Position numbers and translations under genes: made by a program
Origin: Oceanibacterium hippocampi
GTDB taxonomy: Bacteria > Pseudomonadota > Alphaproteobacteria > Sneathiellales > Sneathiellaceae
Direction of reading: 5' to 3'
DNA length: 64,000 nt
Assembly: GCF_900172325.1 (NCBI RefSeq)
Contig: NZ_FWFR01000002.1
Location: 1 to 64,000, forward strand
Notes under the pieces: generated by a model
Databases searched by the model: none
What the model was told of the DNA's origin: nothing
Seen by the model: only the letters and a program-made list of their open reading frames with translations
Shown here: positions 42,193-50,504 of the stretch, piece by piece
Layout of the letters: each line of letters opens with the position of its first letter
Position numbering within the stretch: position 1 is the first letter of the stretch

Positions 42193-43434
42193 GTGTTCTC
42201 CGCCCTCGAATGGACGATCGCCGCCCGCTATCTGCGGGCGAGGCGGGAAGAAGGCTTCATCTCGGTGATCGCCGGCTTCTCCTTCCTCGGCATCATGCTC
42301 GGCGTCGCCACGCTGATCATCGTGATGTCGGTGATGAACGGCTTCCGGGCGGAACTGCTCGATCGTATCCTCGGCCTGAACGGCCATCTGACCGTGCAGG
42401 CCGGCGACCGGCCGCTCGACGATTACGAAGCGCTGTCCGCCCGGATCCTGGCGATCGACGGCATCCGCCGGGTGACGCCGATCCTCGAGGGCCAGGTGCT
42501 CGTGACCCATGCCGGCCGCTCCAGCGGGGCACTCCTGCGCGGCATCCGGGCCGACGACCTCGCCGCGCTCGACATCCGCTTCAGCGGCCTGCGCGACGGT
42601 CTCGAGGATTTCCAGGGCAACGACGCGGTGATCCTCGGCTACCGGCTCGCCCGCCAGCTCGGACTCAGGGTCGGCGAGCGCGTCAACCTGGTCTCCCCGC
42701 AGGGCTCGGCGACGGCCTTCGGCGTCGTCCCCAGGGCGCGTGCCTATACCATCGTCGGCACCTTCAACGCCGAGATGTACGAGTATGACTCCGGCTATCT
42801 GTTCATGCCGCTGGACGCCGCCCAGGCCTATCTGAAATCGCCCGGCGCCGTCGGCGCGCTGGAAATCATGGCCGACGACGGCGACCGGGCGCTGTCGCTC
42901 AAGCTGCCGGTTCTCGAACTGATCGGCGGCGGCCGCTATCTCTACGACTGGATGCAGTCGCGGGCGGCGCTGTTCAACGCGCTGGCGGTCGAACGCAACG
43001 TCATGTTCCTGATCCTGACGCTGATCATCGTCGTCGCCGCCTTCAACATGATCTCGAGCCTGATCATGCTGGTGAAGGACAAGGGCAGGGGAATCGCCAT
43101 CCTCCGCACCATGGGGGCGACACGCGGCATGGTGCTGCGCGTGTTCCTGATCGCCGGCTCCTCCGTCGGCGCCGTCGGCACGCTCGCCGGCTTCCTGCTC
43201 GGGCTCGGCTTCTGCGACAATATCGACACCATAAAGGGCTGGATCGAGCAGCTGACCGGGGCCAACCTGTTCGCCGCCGAGCTCTATTTCCTGTCGCACC
43301 TGCCGGCCAAGATCGATCCGCTCGAGGTCGCGCTGGTGGTCGCGATGGCGCTCTCGCTGTCCTTCCTGGCGACGCTCTACCCGGCCTGGCGGGCGGCCCG
43401 TCTCAACCCGGTCGAGGCGCTGCGTTATGAGTGA
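42193..43434 (+). CDS. lolC: Lipoprotein-releasing ABC transporter permease (LolC/LolE family)
   Basis: A 413-residue inner-membrane permease. It has an N-terminal helix (about 25-50, [20 protein letters not shown]), a periplasmic domain of about 200 residues and three C-terminal helices ending in the FtsX-type motif [18 protein letters not shown]. With LolD it extracts lipoproteins from the inner membrane for transfer to LolA. Alphaproteobacteria have a single permease (LolF-like) forming a homodimer, so C versus E is not meaningful. The start is GTG 42193. It overlaps lolD by 8 bases. Confidence 0.92.
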
Positions 43435-44107
43435 GCCCGCGATCGAGCTTCGCCACGTCGTCCGCACCTATCGCCGCGGCGCCTCGCCGGTGCCGGTGCT
43501 GAAGGATGTCGACCTCGCCCTGGCGCCGGGCGAAATGGTCGCCCTGCTCGGCCCGTCTGGCTCGGGCAAGTCGACGCTGCTCCACCTTGCCGGGCTGCTT
43601 GAACCGCCCGACGGCGGCGAGGTGCTGCTCGGTGGCGAGGCCTGCGGTCATCTCGACGACGGCCGGCGGAGCGCCCTGCGGCGCAGTTCGCTCGGCTTCG
43701 TCTACCAGTTCCATCATCTGCTGCCGGAATTCTCGGCGCTGGAGAACGTCATGATTCCGCAGCGCCTGGCCGGGACCGCCAAGGCCGAGGCCCGCGACCG
43801 CGCCGAGACGCTGCTGCGCAGCCTCGGGCTCGGCGAGCGACTCGACCATCGCCCGGCCCGGATGTCCGGCGGCGAACAGCAGCGGGTTGCCATCGCGCGC
43901 GCGATCGCCAATCGGCCGCGCGTCCTGCTGGCCGACGAGCCGACCGGCAATCTCGACCATTCGACCGCGGAAACCGTGTTCGAGGCGCTCGTTGCGCTGG
44001 CCCGCGACAGCGGCGTCGCGGCGCTGGTGGCAACCCACAATGTCGAGCTTGCCCGCCGCATGGATCGGATCGTCACGCTGGAAGACGGGCGGATCGTCCC
44101 CGTCTGA
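43427..44107 (+). CDS. lolD: Lipoprotein-releasing system ATP-binding protein LolD
   Basis: A 226-residue ABC ATPase. Walker [10 protein letters not shown] is at 42-50, the Q-loop [10 protein letters not shown], the signature SGGEQQR, and Walker [13 protein letters not shown]. It powers lipoprotein release with the LolC/E-type permease just upstream, whose end it overlaps. A long imperfect stem-loop follows before the next gene. Confidence 0.95.
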
Positions 44108-44113
44108 ACGCGC

Positions 44114-44177
44114 CCGTCCCGCGGGAACCCAATGGACAGCGGAAGCGTCTTCTGTCCATGATGAGGTTCCGGGACGG
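44114..44177 (+). promoter_or_regulatory. Long imperfect stem-loop between lolD and the ATP-grasp gene
   Basis: Three paired blocks: CCGTCCC (44114-44120) with GGGACGG (44171-44177), GGAACC (44124-44129) with GGTTCC (44165-44170), and ATGGACAG (44132-44139) with CTGTCCAT (44152-44159), around a 12-base loop. The 3' arm touches the Shine-Dalgarno of the next gene (GGAAAGGGG). It may end the lolCD transcript or gate translation of the ATP-grasp gene. Confidence 0.55.
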
Positions 44178-44189
44178 AAAGGGGACGAC

Positions 44190-45653
44190 GTGTCGACAGA
44201 CGCCGGTACGGACCTGACGGATATCTTCGAGGACTACAGCGCGGCCGGGTATTACTGCGAGATGCTCGGCAACGGCGGTGCTCCGGCCCGCCACACCGAG
44301 GGCCTCCGCCGCCAGCTCTCCGAACTCGGCATCGCCGAACTGCGCCGCCGGGCGGCGATGGCGGAGCGCGAACTCTACAATCTCGGCATTACCTTCACGC
44401 TCTACTCGAACGGCAGCACGATCGACCGGATCCTGCCCTTCGACGTGATACCCCGGGTCCTGTCGAAGGACGACTGGGACATCATCAACCGGGGCGTCCG
44501 CCAGCGCGTCGCGGCGATCAACCTGTTCCTGCATGACATCTATCACGAGCAGAAGATCTTCAAGAACGGCATCATCCCGGCCGGCCTGGTGCTCGGCAAC
44601 TCGAACTACCGTCCGGAGATGCAGGGCGTCGACCTGCCCAGGGGCACCTACGTGCAGATCTGCGGCATCGACATCGTGCGCGACGAGGCCGGCAACTTCC
44701 TGGTCCTCGAGGACAATGCGCGGACCCCGTCGGGCGTCTCCTACGTGGTCGAGAACCGCCATCTGATGCTGCGCGCCTTCCCCGACCTGATGGCCGGGAT
44801 GCGGGTCCGCCCGGTCAGCAACTACGGCGTCCGCCTGCTCGACGCGATGGCCGAGGTGGCGCCCGCCGGGGTGAGCGATCCGCAGGTCGCGCTGCTTTCG
44901 CCCGGGGTCTTCAACTCGGCCTATTTCGAGCATGTCTTCCTGGCCCGCGAAATGGGCGTGCCGCTGGTCTCCGGCGAGGACCTGTTCGTCGACGACGACG
45001 ACCGGGTGTTCATGCGCACGACCGTCGGCCCGGCTCCGGTGCATGTCATCTATCGCCGCATCAACGACGATTTCCTCGACCCGGAGGCGTTCCGCAAGGA
45101 CAGCATGCTCGGCGTGCCGGGGCTGGTCCGGGCGGTCCGGCGCGGCACCGTCACGCTCGCCAACGCGATCGGCACCGGCGTCGCCGACGACAAGGCGGTC
45201 TATGCCTACATGCCGAGGATCATCCGCTACTACCTCGACGAGGACGCGATCCTGCAGAACGTGCCGACCCATATCTGCGGCGAGAAGGAGGGACTCGACC
45301 ACACGCTCGCCCACATGGCGGATCTCGTGGTCAAGCCGGTCGGCGAGGCGGGCGGATACGGCGTCGTCGTCTGCCCCCATTCGACGGCGGCCGAGATCGA
45401 GGCCTGCCGCAAGCAGGTGCTCGCCGATCCCGCCAACTACATCAGCCAGCCGATGATCAACCTGTCGGTTTCGCCGACCCTTGTCGGCAGCGGCATCGAG
45501 CCGCGCCACGTCGACCTGCGTCCGTTCGCGATCACCGGTGACAGCACCTGGGTGCTGCCGGGCGGCCTCACCCGCGTCGCCCTGCCGAAGGGCTCGCTGA
45601 TCGTCAACTCGTCGCAGGGCGGCGGATCGAAGGATACCTGGGTCCTTGACTAA
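44190..45653 (+). CDS. Circularly permuted ATP-grasp family protein
   Basis: A 487-residue protein of the circularly permuted ATP-grasp type 2 family (old DUF404/DUF407). Family segments seen are LGITFTLYSNG, RILPFDVIPRVL, FLHDIYHEQKIFKNGIIP, the core VLEDNARTPSGVSYV and a late LVVKPVGEAGGYGV with the nucleotide-binding Lys. Such proteins are predicted to form amide or peptide bonds with ATP and occur beside alpha-E proteins; no product is established. GTG 44190 has GGAAAGGGG upstream. The next gene, encoding an alpha-E protein, starts within its last codons. The usual third partners (transglutaminase-like protein, NTN hydrolase) are not adjacent. Confidence 0.9.
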   Translation: MSTDAGTDLTDIFEDYSAAGYYCEMLGNGGAPARHTEGLRRQLSELGIAELRRRAAMAERELYNLGITFTLYSNGSTIDRILPFDVIPRVLSKDDWDIINRGVRQRVAAINLFLHDIYHEQKIFKNGIIPAGLVLGNSNYRPEMQGVDLPRGTYVQICGIDIVRDEAGNFLVLEDNARTPSGVSYVVENRHLMLRAFPDLMAGMRVRPVSNYGVRLLDAMAEVAPAGVSDPQVALLSPGVFNSAYFEHVFLAREMGVPLVSGEDLFVDDDDRVFMRTTVGPAPVHVIYRRINDDFLDPEAFRKDSMLGVPGLVRAVRRGTVTLANAIGTGVADDKAVYAYMPRIIRYYLDEDAILQNVPTHICGEKEGLDHTLAHMADLVVKPVGEAGGYGVVVCPHSTAAEIEACRKQVLADPANYISQPMINLSVSPTLVGSGIEPRHVDLRPFAITGDSTWVLPGGLTRVALPKGSLIVNSSQGGGSKDTWVLD

Positions 45654-46644
45654 GCTGCTCGCCCGTTTCGCGGAAAGCGCGCTCTGGATCGCCCGCTACA
45701 TGGAGCGCGCGGAAAATCTCGCCCGCCTGCTCGACGTCAACGAGATGTTCTCCCAGGACCGCCACGATCTCGAGGAATGGCTGCCGATCGTCACCATCAA
45801 CGCGGACGACGAACGTTTCCATGCGAGTTATCCGGCGCCGACCGTCGAGGATGTGATCAATTTCTACATTCTCGACGACGAGAACCCGACGTCGATCAAG
45901 TCGGCGGTCCGTTCGGCGCGCGAGAATGCACGGATGATCCGGCACCTCATCAGCACCGAGATGTGGACCCAGCTCAACATGTTCCACAACCGGCTGGCGA
46001 CGATGAACCGGGGCGAGATACGGCTCGCCAACCTCTCGCCGATCTGCATGGAGATCAAGGAGACCTGCCAGACCCATGCCGGCATCATCTCCGGCACGCT
46101 CTACCGGGACGAGGTCTGGTGTTTCTACCAGATTGGCAAGTACCTGGAACGCGCCGACCAGACGACGCGGCTGCTCGACATCAAGTTCCAGCATGCCGCC
46201 CGGCCGAGCGACGATATCGAGGCGATGACCGATGCCGGGCTGTGGAACGCGCTGCTGCGCTCGGTCGCCGGCTACCACGCCTTCCGCCGTGAACATCCGC
46301 GCGGCTTCAAGCCGGAGATGGTCGCCGGCTTCCTGATCAACGACGACGGCTTCCCGCGCTCGGTCGCGGTCTGCCTCGACGAGCTGAAGCGTCTCTTCGG
46401 CGAGCTCGCGGCGGAGCAGGGGCGCCCGGTCCCGGCGACCATCACCGGGCTCCACGCCGCACTGCACGACGCCGCCGCGGCGCTGCCGCTCGACAAGGCC
46501 CGCGATGGCGACCTGCACGACTATCTCGACGGCCTGCAGGGGCGCTTCATCGATCTCTACGGCCGTCTCGCGGAACATTATTTTTCCGGCGATGTCCCGC
46601 CGCCCGGGGAAACCCGCCCGACCCAGACCCAGACGCAAGGCTGA
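45646..46644 (+). CDS. Alpha-E domain-containing protein (old DUF403)
   Basis: A 332-residue all-helical protein of the alpha-E family. The N-terminal signature ARFAESALWIARYMERAENLARLLDV, the segment MFHNRLATMNRGEI and the late FYQIGKYLERADQTTRLLDI (an internal echo of the N-terminal signature) are diagnostic. The start is TTG 45646, overlapping the ATP-grasp stop by 8 bases; the next Met, at residue 19, would cut the signature. Function is unknown but it is genetically tied to the ATP-grasp enzyme. The tail from about 315 is disordered (PTQTQTQG). The 121 bases that follow hold an SOS-type control region. Confidence 0.9.
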   Translation: MTKLLARFAESALWIARYMERAENLARLLDVNEMFSQDRHDLEEWLPIVTINADDERFHASYPAPTVEDVINFYILDDENPTSIKSAVRSARENARMIRHLISTEMWTQLNMFHNRLATMNRGEIRLANLSPICMEIKETCQTHAGIISGTLYRDEVWCFYQIGKYLERADQTTRLLDIKFQHAARPSDDIEAMTDAGLWNALLRSVAGYHAFRREHPRGFKPEMVAGFLINDDGFPRSVAVCLDELKRLFGELAAEQGRPVPATITGLHAALHDAAAALPLDKARDGDLHDYLDGLQGRFIDLYGRLAEHYFSGDVPPPGETRPTQTQTQG

Positions 46645-46706
46645 GCGCCACTTTCCGCCGGTCCATGCGGCGCGGCGCGTGCCGGCGGGCATGCCGTTCT
46701 GCGGGC

Positions 46707-46733
46707 TTGACAAGAAAAGAACAAAACAGGAAC
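46707..46733 (+). promoter_or_regulatory. LexA (SOS) box overlapping a promoter upstream of a 36-residue peptide
   Basis: GAAC-N7-GAAC at 46719-46733 (reverse complement GTTC-N7-GTTC) is the alphaproteobacterial LexA direct-repeat operator, flanked by A-rich bases. It starts 6 bases after a perfect -35 TTGACA (46707-46712), so bound repressor would block the promoter. The -10 is weak (AACATT at 46731-46736). Confidence 0.75.
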
Positions 46734-46765
46734 ATTTGGCCGGACAGAAACCCGAGGAGGCACCC

Positions 46766-46876
46766 ATGTTCGAAACCCAGAAACTGCTGCGCCAGGGCAT
46801 CGAGGCTGTTGTCATGCTGGCCGCGCTCTACGCCATCTTCACCTGGGCGACACTGATCGACGGGCTGATCGGCTGA
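46766..46876 (+). CDS. Small single-helix membrane protein under apparent SOS control (SidA-like candidate)
   Basis: A 36-residue protein: a polar N-terminus (MFETQKLLRQGIE) and one hydrophobic helix from about 14 to 31 (AVVMLAALYAIFTWATLI), ending DGLIG. ATG 46766 has a perfect GAGGAGG Shine-Dalgarno 5 bases upstream. A LexA box and -35 lie 33-59 bases upstream of the start. In Caulobacter the SOS-induced SidA, a 29-residue inner-membrane peptide, blocks division through the late divisome proteins FtsW/FtsN; the size, topology and control match, but I cannot show homology. The dnaE gene follows. Alternatives are an unrelated stress peptide or a type I toxin-like peptide. Confidence 0.75.
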   Translation: MFETQKLLRQGIEAVVMLAALYAIFTWATLIDGLIG

Positions 46877-47033
46877 CGCCGGCCGTCGCGCCCGGCGCGG
46901 CGACGCCGGGCGACCGCACCGCGACGATCGACCGACAATGAGGAAATGATCCGAACGACTGGGACGACGGCTGTTCCCGAAGCCGTCGCATGCGATAATG
47001 GGCCGAGTGAAGGAAGAACTTGGAGCAGAGCCC

Positions 47034-50000
47034 TTGTCGCACGCGGGTTTCGTGCATTTGCGCGTCCACACAGCCTACTCCCTTTCCGAGGGGGCGATTC
47101 GCGTGAAGGAGCTCGCGGCGCTCTGCCGCGACGGACGGATGCCGGCGGTGGCGATCACCGACAGCTCCAACCTGTTCGGCGCGATGGAATTCTCCGAGGC
47201 GATGGCTAAGGCAGGGGTGCAGCCGATCATCGGCTGCCAGCTCGCGCTGCGCAGCCGGAACGCGGAACCGCAGGGACGTAGCCATCGCCATCGCGACCTG
47301 CCGACCATCGTTCTCCTGGCCCAGGACGAGACCGGATACGCCAACCTCCTGAAACTCTCGACCAAGGCCTTCCTGGAAACCGAGCCGACCGAGCTGCCGC
47401 AGGTCGACTTCGCCGATATCGTCGACCGTGGCGACGGCCTCATCTGCCTGACGGGCGGCGCCAACGGCCCGCTCGGGCATCTGCTCGCCGACAACAAGGA
47501 CGGGCCTGCGCGGCAATTCCTGGAGCGCATGGCGGCGGCCTTCCCGGACCGTCTCTATGTCGAGATCCAGCGCCACGGCATGCCGGAGGAGATGGCGGTC
47601 GAGGAGCGCATGCTCGAACTCGCCTTCGATACCGGGCTGCCGCTGGTCGCCACCAACGAATGCTATTTCACCCGAGCGAACATGTACGAGGCGCACGACG
47701 CGCTGCGCTGCATCGCCGGCGGCACCTATGTCGGCGTGAGCGAGCGCGACCGTCTGACCCCGGAACATTATTTCAAGTCGGCCGACGAGATGGCGGCGCT
47801 CTTCGACGACCTGCCGGAAGCGATCGAGAACAGTCTCGTGATCGCCCGGCGCTGCGCCGTCGCCGCGCCGAAGCGGTCGCCGATCCTGCCGAATTTCACC
47901 GACGACGGCTCGGACGAGGGGCTGGAGCTCGAGAACCAGGCCCGCCGCGGCCTGGAAGGCCGCCTCCGGGAGGCGGTCTTCACCGACGACATGGACGCGG
48001 CGGCACGCGAGGCCGCGGCCGTGCCCTATTGGGAGCGCTTCGATTACGAGCTCGGCATCATCCGCCAGATGGGCTTCTCGGGTTATTTCCTGATCGTTTC
48101 CGACTTCATCAAGTGGGCGAAGGCCCATGGCATCCCGGTCGGGCCGGGACGCGGCTCCGGCGCCGGCTCGGTGATCGCCTGGTCGCTCACTATCACCGAT
48201 CTCGACCCGCTCCGCTTCGGCCTGCTGTTCGAACGCTTCCTCAATCCCGAGCGGATCTCGATGCCTGACTTCGACATCGACTTCTGCCAGGACCGGCGCG
48301 ACGAGGTGATCGACTACGTCCAGCAGAAATACGGGCGCGGCAACGTTGCCCAGATCATCACCTTCGGGAAGCTGCAGGCCCGGGCGGCGCTGCGCGACGT
48401 CGGGCGGGTGCTGGAACTGGGCTTCGGCCGGGTCGACCGGATCTGCAAGATGGTGCCGAACAATCCCGCCAACCCGGTCACGCTCGCCGAGGCGCTCGAG
48501 ATCGAGCCCCGGCTCAAGGAGGAGAAGCGGAACGACGAGGGCGTCGCCCGCCTGATCGAGACGGCGCAGAAGCTGGAGGGTCTTTACCGGCACGCCTCGA
48601 CGCACGCCGCCGGCGTGGTGATCGGCGACCGGCCGCTCGAGGAACTGGTGCCGCTCTACCGCGACCCGCGCTCCGACATGCCGGTGACCCAGTTCTCGAT
48701 GAAATATGCCGAGGCGGCCGGGCTGGTGAAGTTCGACTTTCTCGGCCTGAAGACGCTGACGGTCCTCGACCGGGCGCGCAAGCTGCTCGAGCAGCGCGAG
48801 ATAAAGGTCGACCTGGCGGCCCTGCCGCTCGACGACAAGGCGACCTACGCCATGCTCGGCCGCGGCGAGACGGTCGGCGTGTTCCAGCTTGAAAGTTCGG
48901 GCATGCGCGACGTGCTTCGGCAGATGCGGCCGGACGTCTTCGAGGAGATCATCGCCCTTGTCGCGCTCTACCGTCCCGGGCCGATGGACAACATCCCGAA
49001 ATACATCGCCTGCAAGTTCGGCCAGGAGCAGCCGGACTACCTGCACCCCTGGCTGGAGAAGCTTCTGAAGGAGACCTACGGGGTCATCATCTACCAGGAG
49101 CAGGTGCTGGAGATCGCCAAGATCCTCGCCGGATACAGCCTTGGCGAGGCCGATATCCTGCGCAAGGCGATGGGCAAGAAGATCAAGGAGGAGATGGACG
49201 CCCAGCGCGAGCGCTTCGTCTCGGGCGCGGCCGGGAAGGGCGTGCCGAAGCAGCAGGCCTCGAGCATCTTCGACCAGGTGGCGAAGTTCGCCGGTTACGG
49301 CTTCAACAAGGCGCACAGCGCCTGCTACGCGCTCATCGCCTACCAGACCGCCTGGCTCAAGGCCAACTACCCGGTCGAGTTCATGGCCGCCTCGATGAGC
49401 CTCGACCTCAACAATACCGACAAGCTCAACATCTTCCGCCAGGAGCTCGATCGTTCCGGCATCGAGGTCCGCTCGCCGGACATCAACCGCTCCGGCGTCG
49501 AGTTCTCGGTGGAGTTCGAGGGCGAGACCGGCGCCGTCCGCTATGCCCTCGCGGCGATCAAGAATGTCGGGCGGGAGGCGATGGCGCAGATCGTCGCCGA
49601 ACGGGAGCGGGGCGGGCCGTTCCGTTCGATCGCCGACTTCGCGAGCCGGGTCGATCCGGGTGTGATCAACAAGCGCCAGCTCGAGAACCTGATCCGCGCC
49701 GGCGCCTTTGACGGGCTGAACGCCAACCGCACCCAGCTGCTCGCCGGCGCCGACCTGATCCTGCGCCATGCGGGCAGCTGCGCCTCCGAACGCGCGGCCG
49801 GCCAGACCAGCCTGTTCGGCGGTGGCCCGGCCGAGGAAAGCCAGGCGCTCCGCCTGCCGGACGTGCCGCCGGCGTCGGCCGTCGACCAGCTGCGCGACGA
49901 GTTCGACGCCGTCGGCTTCTATCTCTCGGCGCATCCGCTCGACGCCTATGCGGAAACGCTGGCCAAGCTCGGCACGGTCAGTGCCGCGGCGCTGCCCGCG

Positions 50001-50504
50001 GTACTGCGGCGGGGCGAGGCGAGCTGCCGGATCGCCGGGGCCATCCTGGGCAAGCAGGAGCGACGCTCGGCGCGCGGCACGCCGTTCGCCTTCGTCCAGC
50101 TCTCCGATCCGACCGGCGCCTACGAGGTCACGGTCTTTTCCGAGGTTCTCGAGGAGGCCCGCGAGATCATGGAAGTCGGCCAGAGCGTGGTCCTTCACGT
50201 CGACGGCAAGTCCGATGGCGAGCAGATCCGGCTGACCGCGACCCGGATCCAGACGCTCGACGGCGCGGCCGCCCAGGCGGGCGGCGATGTCGCGCTCTAC
50301 CTGGCCAATACCGATCCGCTGCCGGCGATCGCCCGGCTGCTCCAGGACACGGGCGGCGGCCGCAACCGCGTCTTCATGGTTCTCGACCTGCCCGAGGACG
50401 GCACCGAGGTCCGGATCAAGCTGCCGCAGCCCTACGCGATCTCGCCGCAGATCCGACAGGCCCTGAAGACCTTTCCCGGCGTTCGCGACCTGCGCGAGGC
50501 CTGA
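47034..50504 (+). CDS. dnaE: DNA polymerase III subunit alpha
   Basis: A 1156-residue replicative polymerase (DnaE1 type). The N-terminal PHP domain begins [17 protein letters not shown]; the catalytic Asp pair is in MPDFDIDF, followed by the fingers, the helix-hairpin-helix (about 830-900), and an OB-fold domain near 990-1060. I prefer TTG 47034 because it gives [12 protein letters not shown], the usual DnaE start, with GGAG 10-13 bases upstream; ATG 46998 adds 12 residues and lies on a GATAAT hexamer (46994-46999) that could be a -10. Length and tail rule out the error-prone DnaE2. A strong terminator follows. Confidence 0.95.

Follow-up and report, generated by a model that had tools for sequence, protein, structure and literature searches.

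Immediately upstream of dnaE in Oceanibacterium hippocampi, a 36-codon open reading frame (ORF) follows a LexA-type operator. Is this a gene, and could its product be an SOS-induced division inhibitor like SidA of Caulobacter? A first-pass annotation of the window (the whole 64-kb stretch of DNA analysed) had proposed a LexA-controlled equivalent of SidA. SOS division inhibitors are regarded as having arisen separately, lineage by lineage.

Locus layout and operator

Table 1. Features of the peptide gene and its surroundings in the window.
Feature	Position	Strand	Basis or remark
-35 hexamer TTGACA	46707..46712	+	Sequence; 3 nt further from the operator than in Sneathiella
Predicted LexA operator GAACAAAACAGGAAC, GAAC-N7-GAAC	46719..46733	+	Sequence pattern
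Shine-Dalgarno GAGGAGG	46754..46760	+	Sequence
36-codon gene of SidA-type single-helix peptide	46766..46876	+	ATG 46766, TGA 46876
Predicted membrane-spanning stretch, residues 12-30	46799..46855	+	Mean hydropathy 1.86 over 19 residues
dnaE, DNA polymerase III alpha	46998..50504	+	ATG 46998; NCBIfam PRK05673

The features of the locus are collected in Table 1. The operator, the ribosome site and the 36-codon ORF with one hydrophobic helix next to dnaE were all present as first annotated. The encoded peptide is MFETQKLLRQGIEAVVMLAALYAIFTWATLIDGLIG (36 aa), for which AlphaFold returned one helix spanning residues 3-35 (mean pLDDT 93). A longer frame of 123 codons (46505-46876) was rejected as a read-through of the peptide frame into the upstream gene; the start was set at the ATG given in Table 1 because of its conservation and the ribosome site. 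The gap between the peptide gene and dnaE is 121 bp. No intrinsic terminator was seen between the two genes in the window, so that dnaE could possibly be co-induced with the peptide. The upstream neighbour is an unrelated Alpha-E gene (PF04168).

The promoter was less regular than first described. Its -35 hexamer is perfect in its letters but off-consensus in spacing, with 20 nt to CATTTG. In Sneathiella, the sister genus, exactly 4 nt separate the end of TTGAC from the box at 22/22 loci, which gives 17 nt to CATTAT, and the operator therefore fills the -35/-10 spacer; in the window the hexamer lies 3 nt further from the box. A plain sigma-70 scan of the window promoter region found no promoter.

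Taken alone, the operator pattern in the window is at chance level and worthless as evidence: GAAC-N7-GAAC has 2 matches in the 64 kb, where 1.6 are expected, and 161 in the whole genome. We then considered which other genes of this genome carry it. Genes preceded by the same pattern are recA (L286), lexA (L289), imuA (L283), beyond which lies dnaE2, and a radical SAM gene of the PA0069 type (L284). At ssb/uvrA (L282, G000:C6:184454-184468) the 15-mer GAACAAAACAGGAAC recurs letter for letter; there it stands between ssb and an ORF resembling an oxygenase, with uvrA on the far side of this ORF. Since recA, lexA, imuA and ssb/uvrA all carry the pattern, it is reasonable to infer that the LexA of O. 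hippocampi would read the operator of the peptide gene.

Three further sites were noted in this genome. The sequence GAACATAATACGAAC lies about 190 bp before an mraZ ORF (L285, G000:C16:1589905-1589919). As mraZ is usually the first gene of the division and cell-wall cluster, this may be a second link between SOS and division, or chance. Two large genes that are related to each other and resemble serine recombinases lie near contig ends (L287 and L288, on G000 contigs C18 and C4); both have GAAC-N7-GAAC shortly before their start codons and are possibly damage-induced mobile elements.

Gene content upstream of the peptide varies. In the window, a circularly permuted ATP-grasp gene and the Alpha-E gene (43427-46644) separate the peptide gene from a lolD-like ABC gene; in Sneathiella this place is taken by other genes, e.g. 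an MscS-like one at L005 and L006.

Conservation in the family and coding selection

We searched the window's family with a four-row peptide alignment (A1) that contained no promoter information. The peptide was found in 23/26 family genomes, including all 19 of good quality. A single-sequence query with the window peptide gave only marginal matches in Sneathiella, and the alignment was needed to recover the homologues. The arrangement that the first-pass annotation had suggested looking for in relatives, a short ORF and a LexA box before dnaE, is widespread in this family: all 23 homologues carried a perfect GAAC-N7-GAAC in the promoter, in most cases GAACAAAACAAGAAC, located some 27-41 bp upstream of the start codon, and dnaE lay downstream at 21 of the 23 loci, namely those readable by motif scan. 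The operator gains its significance from this conservation, because the 23 homologues were found by protein sequence only.

The ORF is also conserved at the amino acid level. Among 22 Sneathiella genes, pN was lower than pS in 231/231 pairs. The median pN/pS was 0.29 in pairs of moderate divergence, compared with 1.67 and 1.31 in the shifted frames, and one pair (L005 and L007) differed by 8 synonymous and 0 replacement changes. The peptide ORF is thus under purifying selection. Residues E13 and W27 of the window peptide were invariant in the 22-row alignment. The window copy was about 30% identical to its Sneathiella homologues. A chance ORF beside a chance box would fit the number of boxes in the window but is refuted by the 23 conserved boxes and the low median pN/pS, and we give it practically no weight.

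Routine annotation does not pick up genes as short as these, and neither Pfam nor NCBIfam has a model for them; searches of both collections gave no match to the peptide family. PHROGs likewise lacks a model, a search of it giving one match, at chance level, to a relative.

Relation to SidA and distribution in Alphaproteobacteria

We asked whether sidA lies near dnaE in the C. vibrioides genome G480. G480 was taken as C. vibrioides because its PopZ was 100% identical to a PopZ query that agreed with PDB chain 6xry, which is PopZ. A 29-codon ORF was found directly before dnaE (L185), behind GAACATCTTGTGAAC; its other neighbour encodes an inosine-uridine nucleoside hydrolase (IU_nuc_hydro, PF01156, E 1e-78). 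According to published work, SidA has 29 residues, resides in the inner membrane and binds FtsW (PMC4211646); it is encoded by CCNA_02004 (PMC11034885), CCNA_02005 being an inosine-uridine nucleoside hydrolase (PMC3667746) and Caulobacter dnaE being CC1926 (PMC1839093). As the published length, locus numbers and neighbour identities fit, this ORF is identified as SidA by length, place, operator and neighbour. A peptide upstream of dnaE was present in 29/30 Caulobacteraceae examined, with a perfect box in 21 of the 30, C. vibrioides included.

SidA and the window peptide are therefore alike in being tiny (29 vs 36 aa), single-helix peptides encoded directly before dnaE behind a GAAC-N7-GAAC LexA box. 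This positional match was absent from the first-pass annotation. Through the wider family the two peptides can be aligned without internal gaps, with about 21% pairwise identity over a short alignment. The window peptide is 7 residues longer and ends in a tryptophan/acidic segment (FTWATLIDGLIG), and its gene has a different upstream neighbour (the Alpha-E gene rather than the nucleoside hydrolase).

Among short hydrophobic helices, likeness arises by chance. When the Caulobacteraceae peptides were compared with a profile of other families, built without Caulobacteraceae and without the window's family, hhalign gave 95% with an E-value of 2.8e-8, and with the same profile SidA homologues occupied the top 8 ranks over some 3,100 decoys with a similar composition. 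This is good evidence that the wider dnaE-upstream family is homologous to SidA. The window's family matched all others with P 1.1e-4 over 33 columns and no gaps; family members took ranks 1, 2, 5, 6, 8 and 9 among the decoys, only two of them scoring above the best decoy, and the window peptide itself ranked 66th against about 3,130 decoys. A direct profile comparison of the window subfamily (A2) with SidA (A3) was not significant. By eye, the Minwuiaceae peptide MKRLVHDVTTALGLIGLWGVLFVWAEIAQSLIG bridges the window subfamily and the SidA half. For the window subfamily, homology to SidA by sequence is thus suggestive only. The link is carried mainly by position, operator, size and topology, with sequence the weaker part, and orthology of the window peptide with SidA is the best reading, of which sequence alone is no proof.

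We also looked at the breadth of this arrangement. In a first automatic scan, a hydrophobic short ORF followed 11/11 direct-orientation boxes within 800 bp of dnaE. Boxes of the opposite orientation (GTTC-N7-GTTC) before dnaE were, with few exceptions, followed by no such peptide. Box and peptide preceded dnaE in 15/119 dnaE upstream regions of the class (families f5, f10, f57, f82, f116, f121 and f126), an association that is partly circular outside the window's family and Caulobacteraceae because most members were picked by box and hydrophobicity. The arrangement of LexA box, peptide and dnaE was found in about ten alphaproteobacterial families, further named loci being those of Tepidicaulis marinus, a Maricaulis MAG and a Minwuiaceae MAG, among others. 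Many groups lacked the peptide at dnaE, including most Rhodospirillales and Rhodobacterales sampled.

A broad alignment (A6) was then searched through 387 genomes. Three new loci that had not been used in building it (L317 and L319 in f4, L318 in f171) had the peptide, a perfect box and an adjoining dnaE. Two more had a box one mismatch away, with dnaE adjoining at L323 and not adjoining at L320. Evidence on the box that is free of circularity comes from five loci that were found later and have a perfect box (L088, L206, L317, L318 and L319), and from the sequence-only A1 search. The peptide can leave dnaE: in L206, from a Minwuiaceae MAG, it lies 805 bp from dnaE, and in L320 (genome G253) peptide and dnaE are on different contigs, both loci keeping a LexA-like promoter.

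These displaced copies bear on two explanations that centre on dnaE. According to the first, the ORF is a leader peptide or upstream ORF regulating dnaE translation; in the window's family it does lie upstream of the dnaE start by a few hundred bp, and small leader ORFs exist in Caulobacter (PMC4117421). We regard this as very improbable, given the amino-acid-level selection, the separate ribosome site, the 121-bp gap, the two peptides not directly before dnaE, and the known protein function of SidA itself. According to the second, the product is induced by SOS and sits in the membrane but has a different partner, for instance modulating the replicative polymerase or some other enzyme of the envelope. 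The tight linkage to dnaE that many families show would favour this, but a polymerase in the cytosol is unlikely to have a single-helix membrane peptide as its partner, and L206 and L320 lose the linkage while retaining an operator-like promoter; we consider it improbable.

Proposed function and alternatives

Taking position, operator and topology together, the ORF is probably a gene of the SOS regulon, the positional counterpart and a likely orthologue of sidA, whose product would act as a late-division inhibitor. LexA would sit between -35 and -10 and block transcription. Upon DNA damage, RecA activation would lead to LexA cleavage and the peptide would be made. It would insert in the inner membrane as a single helix, probably with its N-terminus inside, and could hold the late divisome (FtsW/FtsI/FtsN) in an inactive state, so that septation would wait until repair is done; for SidA, action on this complex is known (PMC4211646). 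Division inhibition outside Caulobacter is putative for every member of the family. The original SidA proposal is largely supported: coding selection, an operator in every homologue and the place of sidA speak for it, while homology of the window subfamily is at the suggestive level given above and the activity of the window peptide is presumed by analogy.

Similar proteins are known elsewhere. YneA, SosA, ChiZ and DivS of Gram-positive bacteria are SOS-induced single-pass membrane inhibitors of late division, as we propose for the window peptide. They are larger, ChiZ and YneA having a LysM domain, and we know of no sequence relation between them and the window peptide. SulA of E. coli is also an SOS-induced division inhibitor, but it is cytosolic, acts on FtsZ and is a different protein altogether. 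For the single-pass membrane inhibitors, FtsW has lately been proposed as a common target (PMC13396833); the same paper reports, at low confidence, that SidA docks at TM7 of FtsW.

A closer match in size is offered by TisB and DinQ, SOS type I toxins of E. coli that are single helices of about 30 aa. In type I toxins the leader is long and structured, and an antisense RNA is present. The window peptide could be a different SOS-induced peptide of this kind, depolarising the membrane and slowing the cell with no block of the septum: it shares size class and SOS control with TisB and with DinQ (PMC3567139), and the similarity of its subfamily to SidA is weak. We judge this unlikely. Neither antisense-RNA control nor a structured leader was seen at the window locus; the leader is about 30 nt long and unfolded (folding z-score +1.25), with no RNA family match beyond a chance one in Rfam. 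Because the leader is short and unstructured, type I toxin action is less likely. The synteny with sidA also argues against it, and the conserved E13 and W27 favour a specific protein partner.

That the peptide gene holds the place which sidA has in Caulobacter suggests a damage checkpoint of far greater age and wider spread than is apparent from work on Caulobacter. Tentatively, and with somewhat more doubt than confidence, we propose that SidA, rather than being peculiar to Caulobacter, is a branch of a checkpoint family that is ancient in Alphaproteobacteria, and that its gene forms an SOS-inducible unit with dnaE, where one LexA promoter would raise the division block and the replicative polymerase together upon DNA damage. 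Should the family hold from Caulobacter to the relatives of Sneathiella, Minwuia, Maricaulis and Tepidicaulis, Alphaproteobacteria would have a common ancestral division checkpoint, and divergent natural variants of the peptide would help to map the contact between SidA and FtsW. In an open-access literature library, a scope that takes in neither the first description of SidA (Genes Dev 2011) nor a 2004 comparative paper on LexA, we found no description of SidA outside Caulobacter, in agreement with the earlier remark that the gene may be undescribed in this lineage.

A separate observation concerns dnaE. The interval from the peptide gene to dnaE in the window showed no TTWTCCACA. Across the collection, this DnaA-box-like sequence occurred within 300 nt before dnaE in 45/229 upstream regions; four control windows of the same length, taken further upstream and mostly coding, had 0-3. 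DnaA control of dnaE is possible; at two example loci, L005 and L008, the sequence lies just after the peptide gene.
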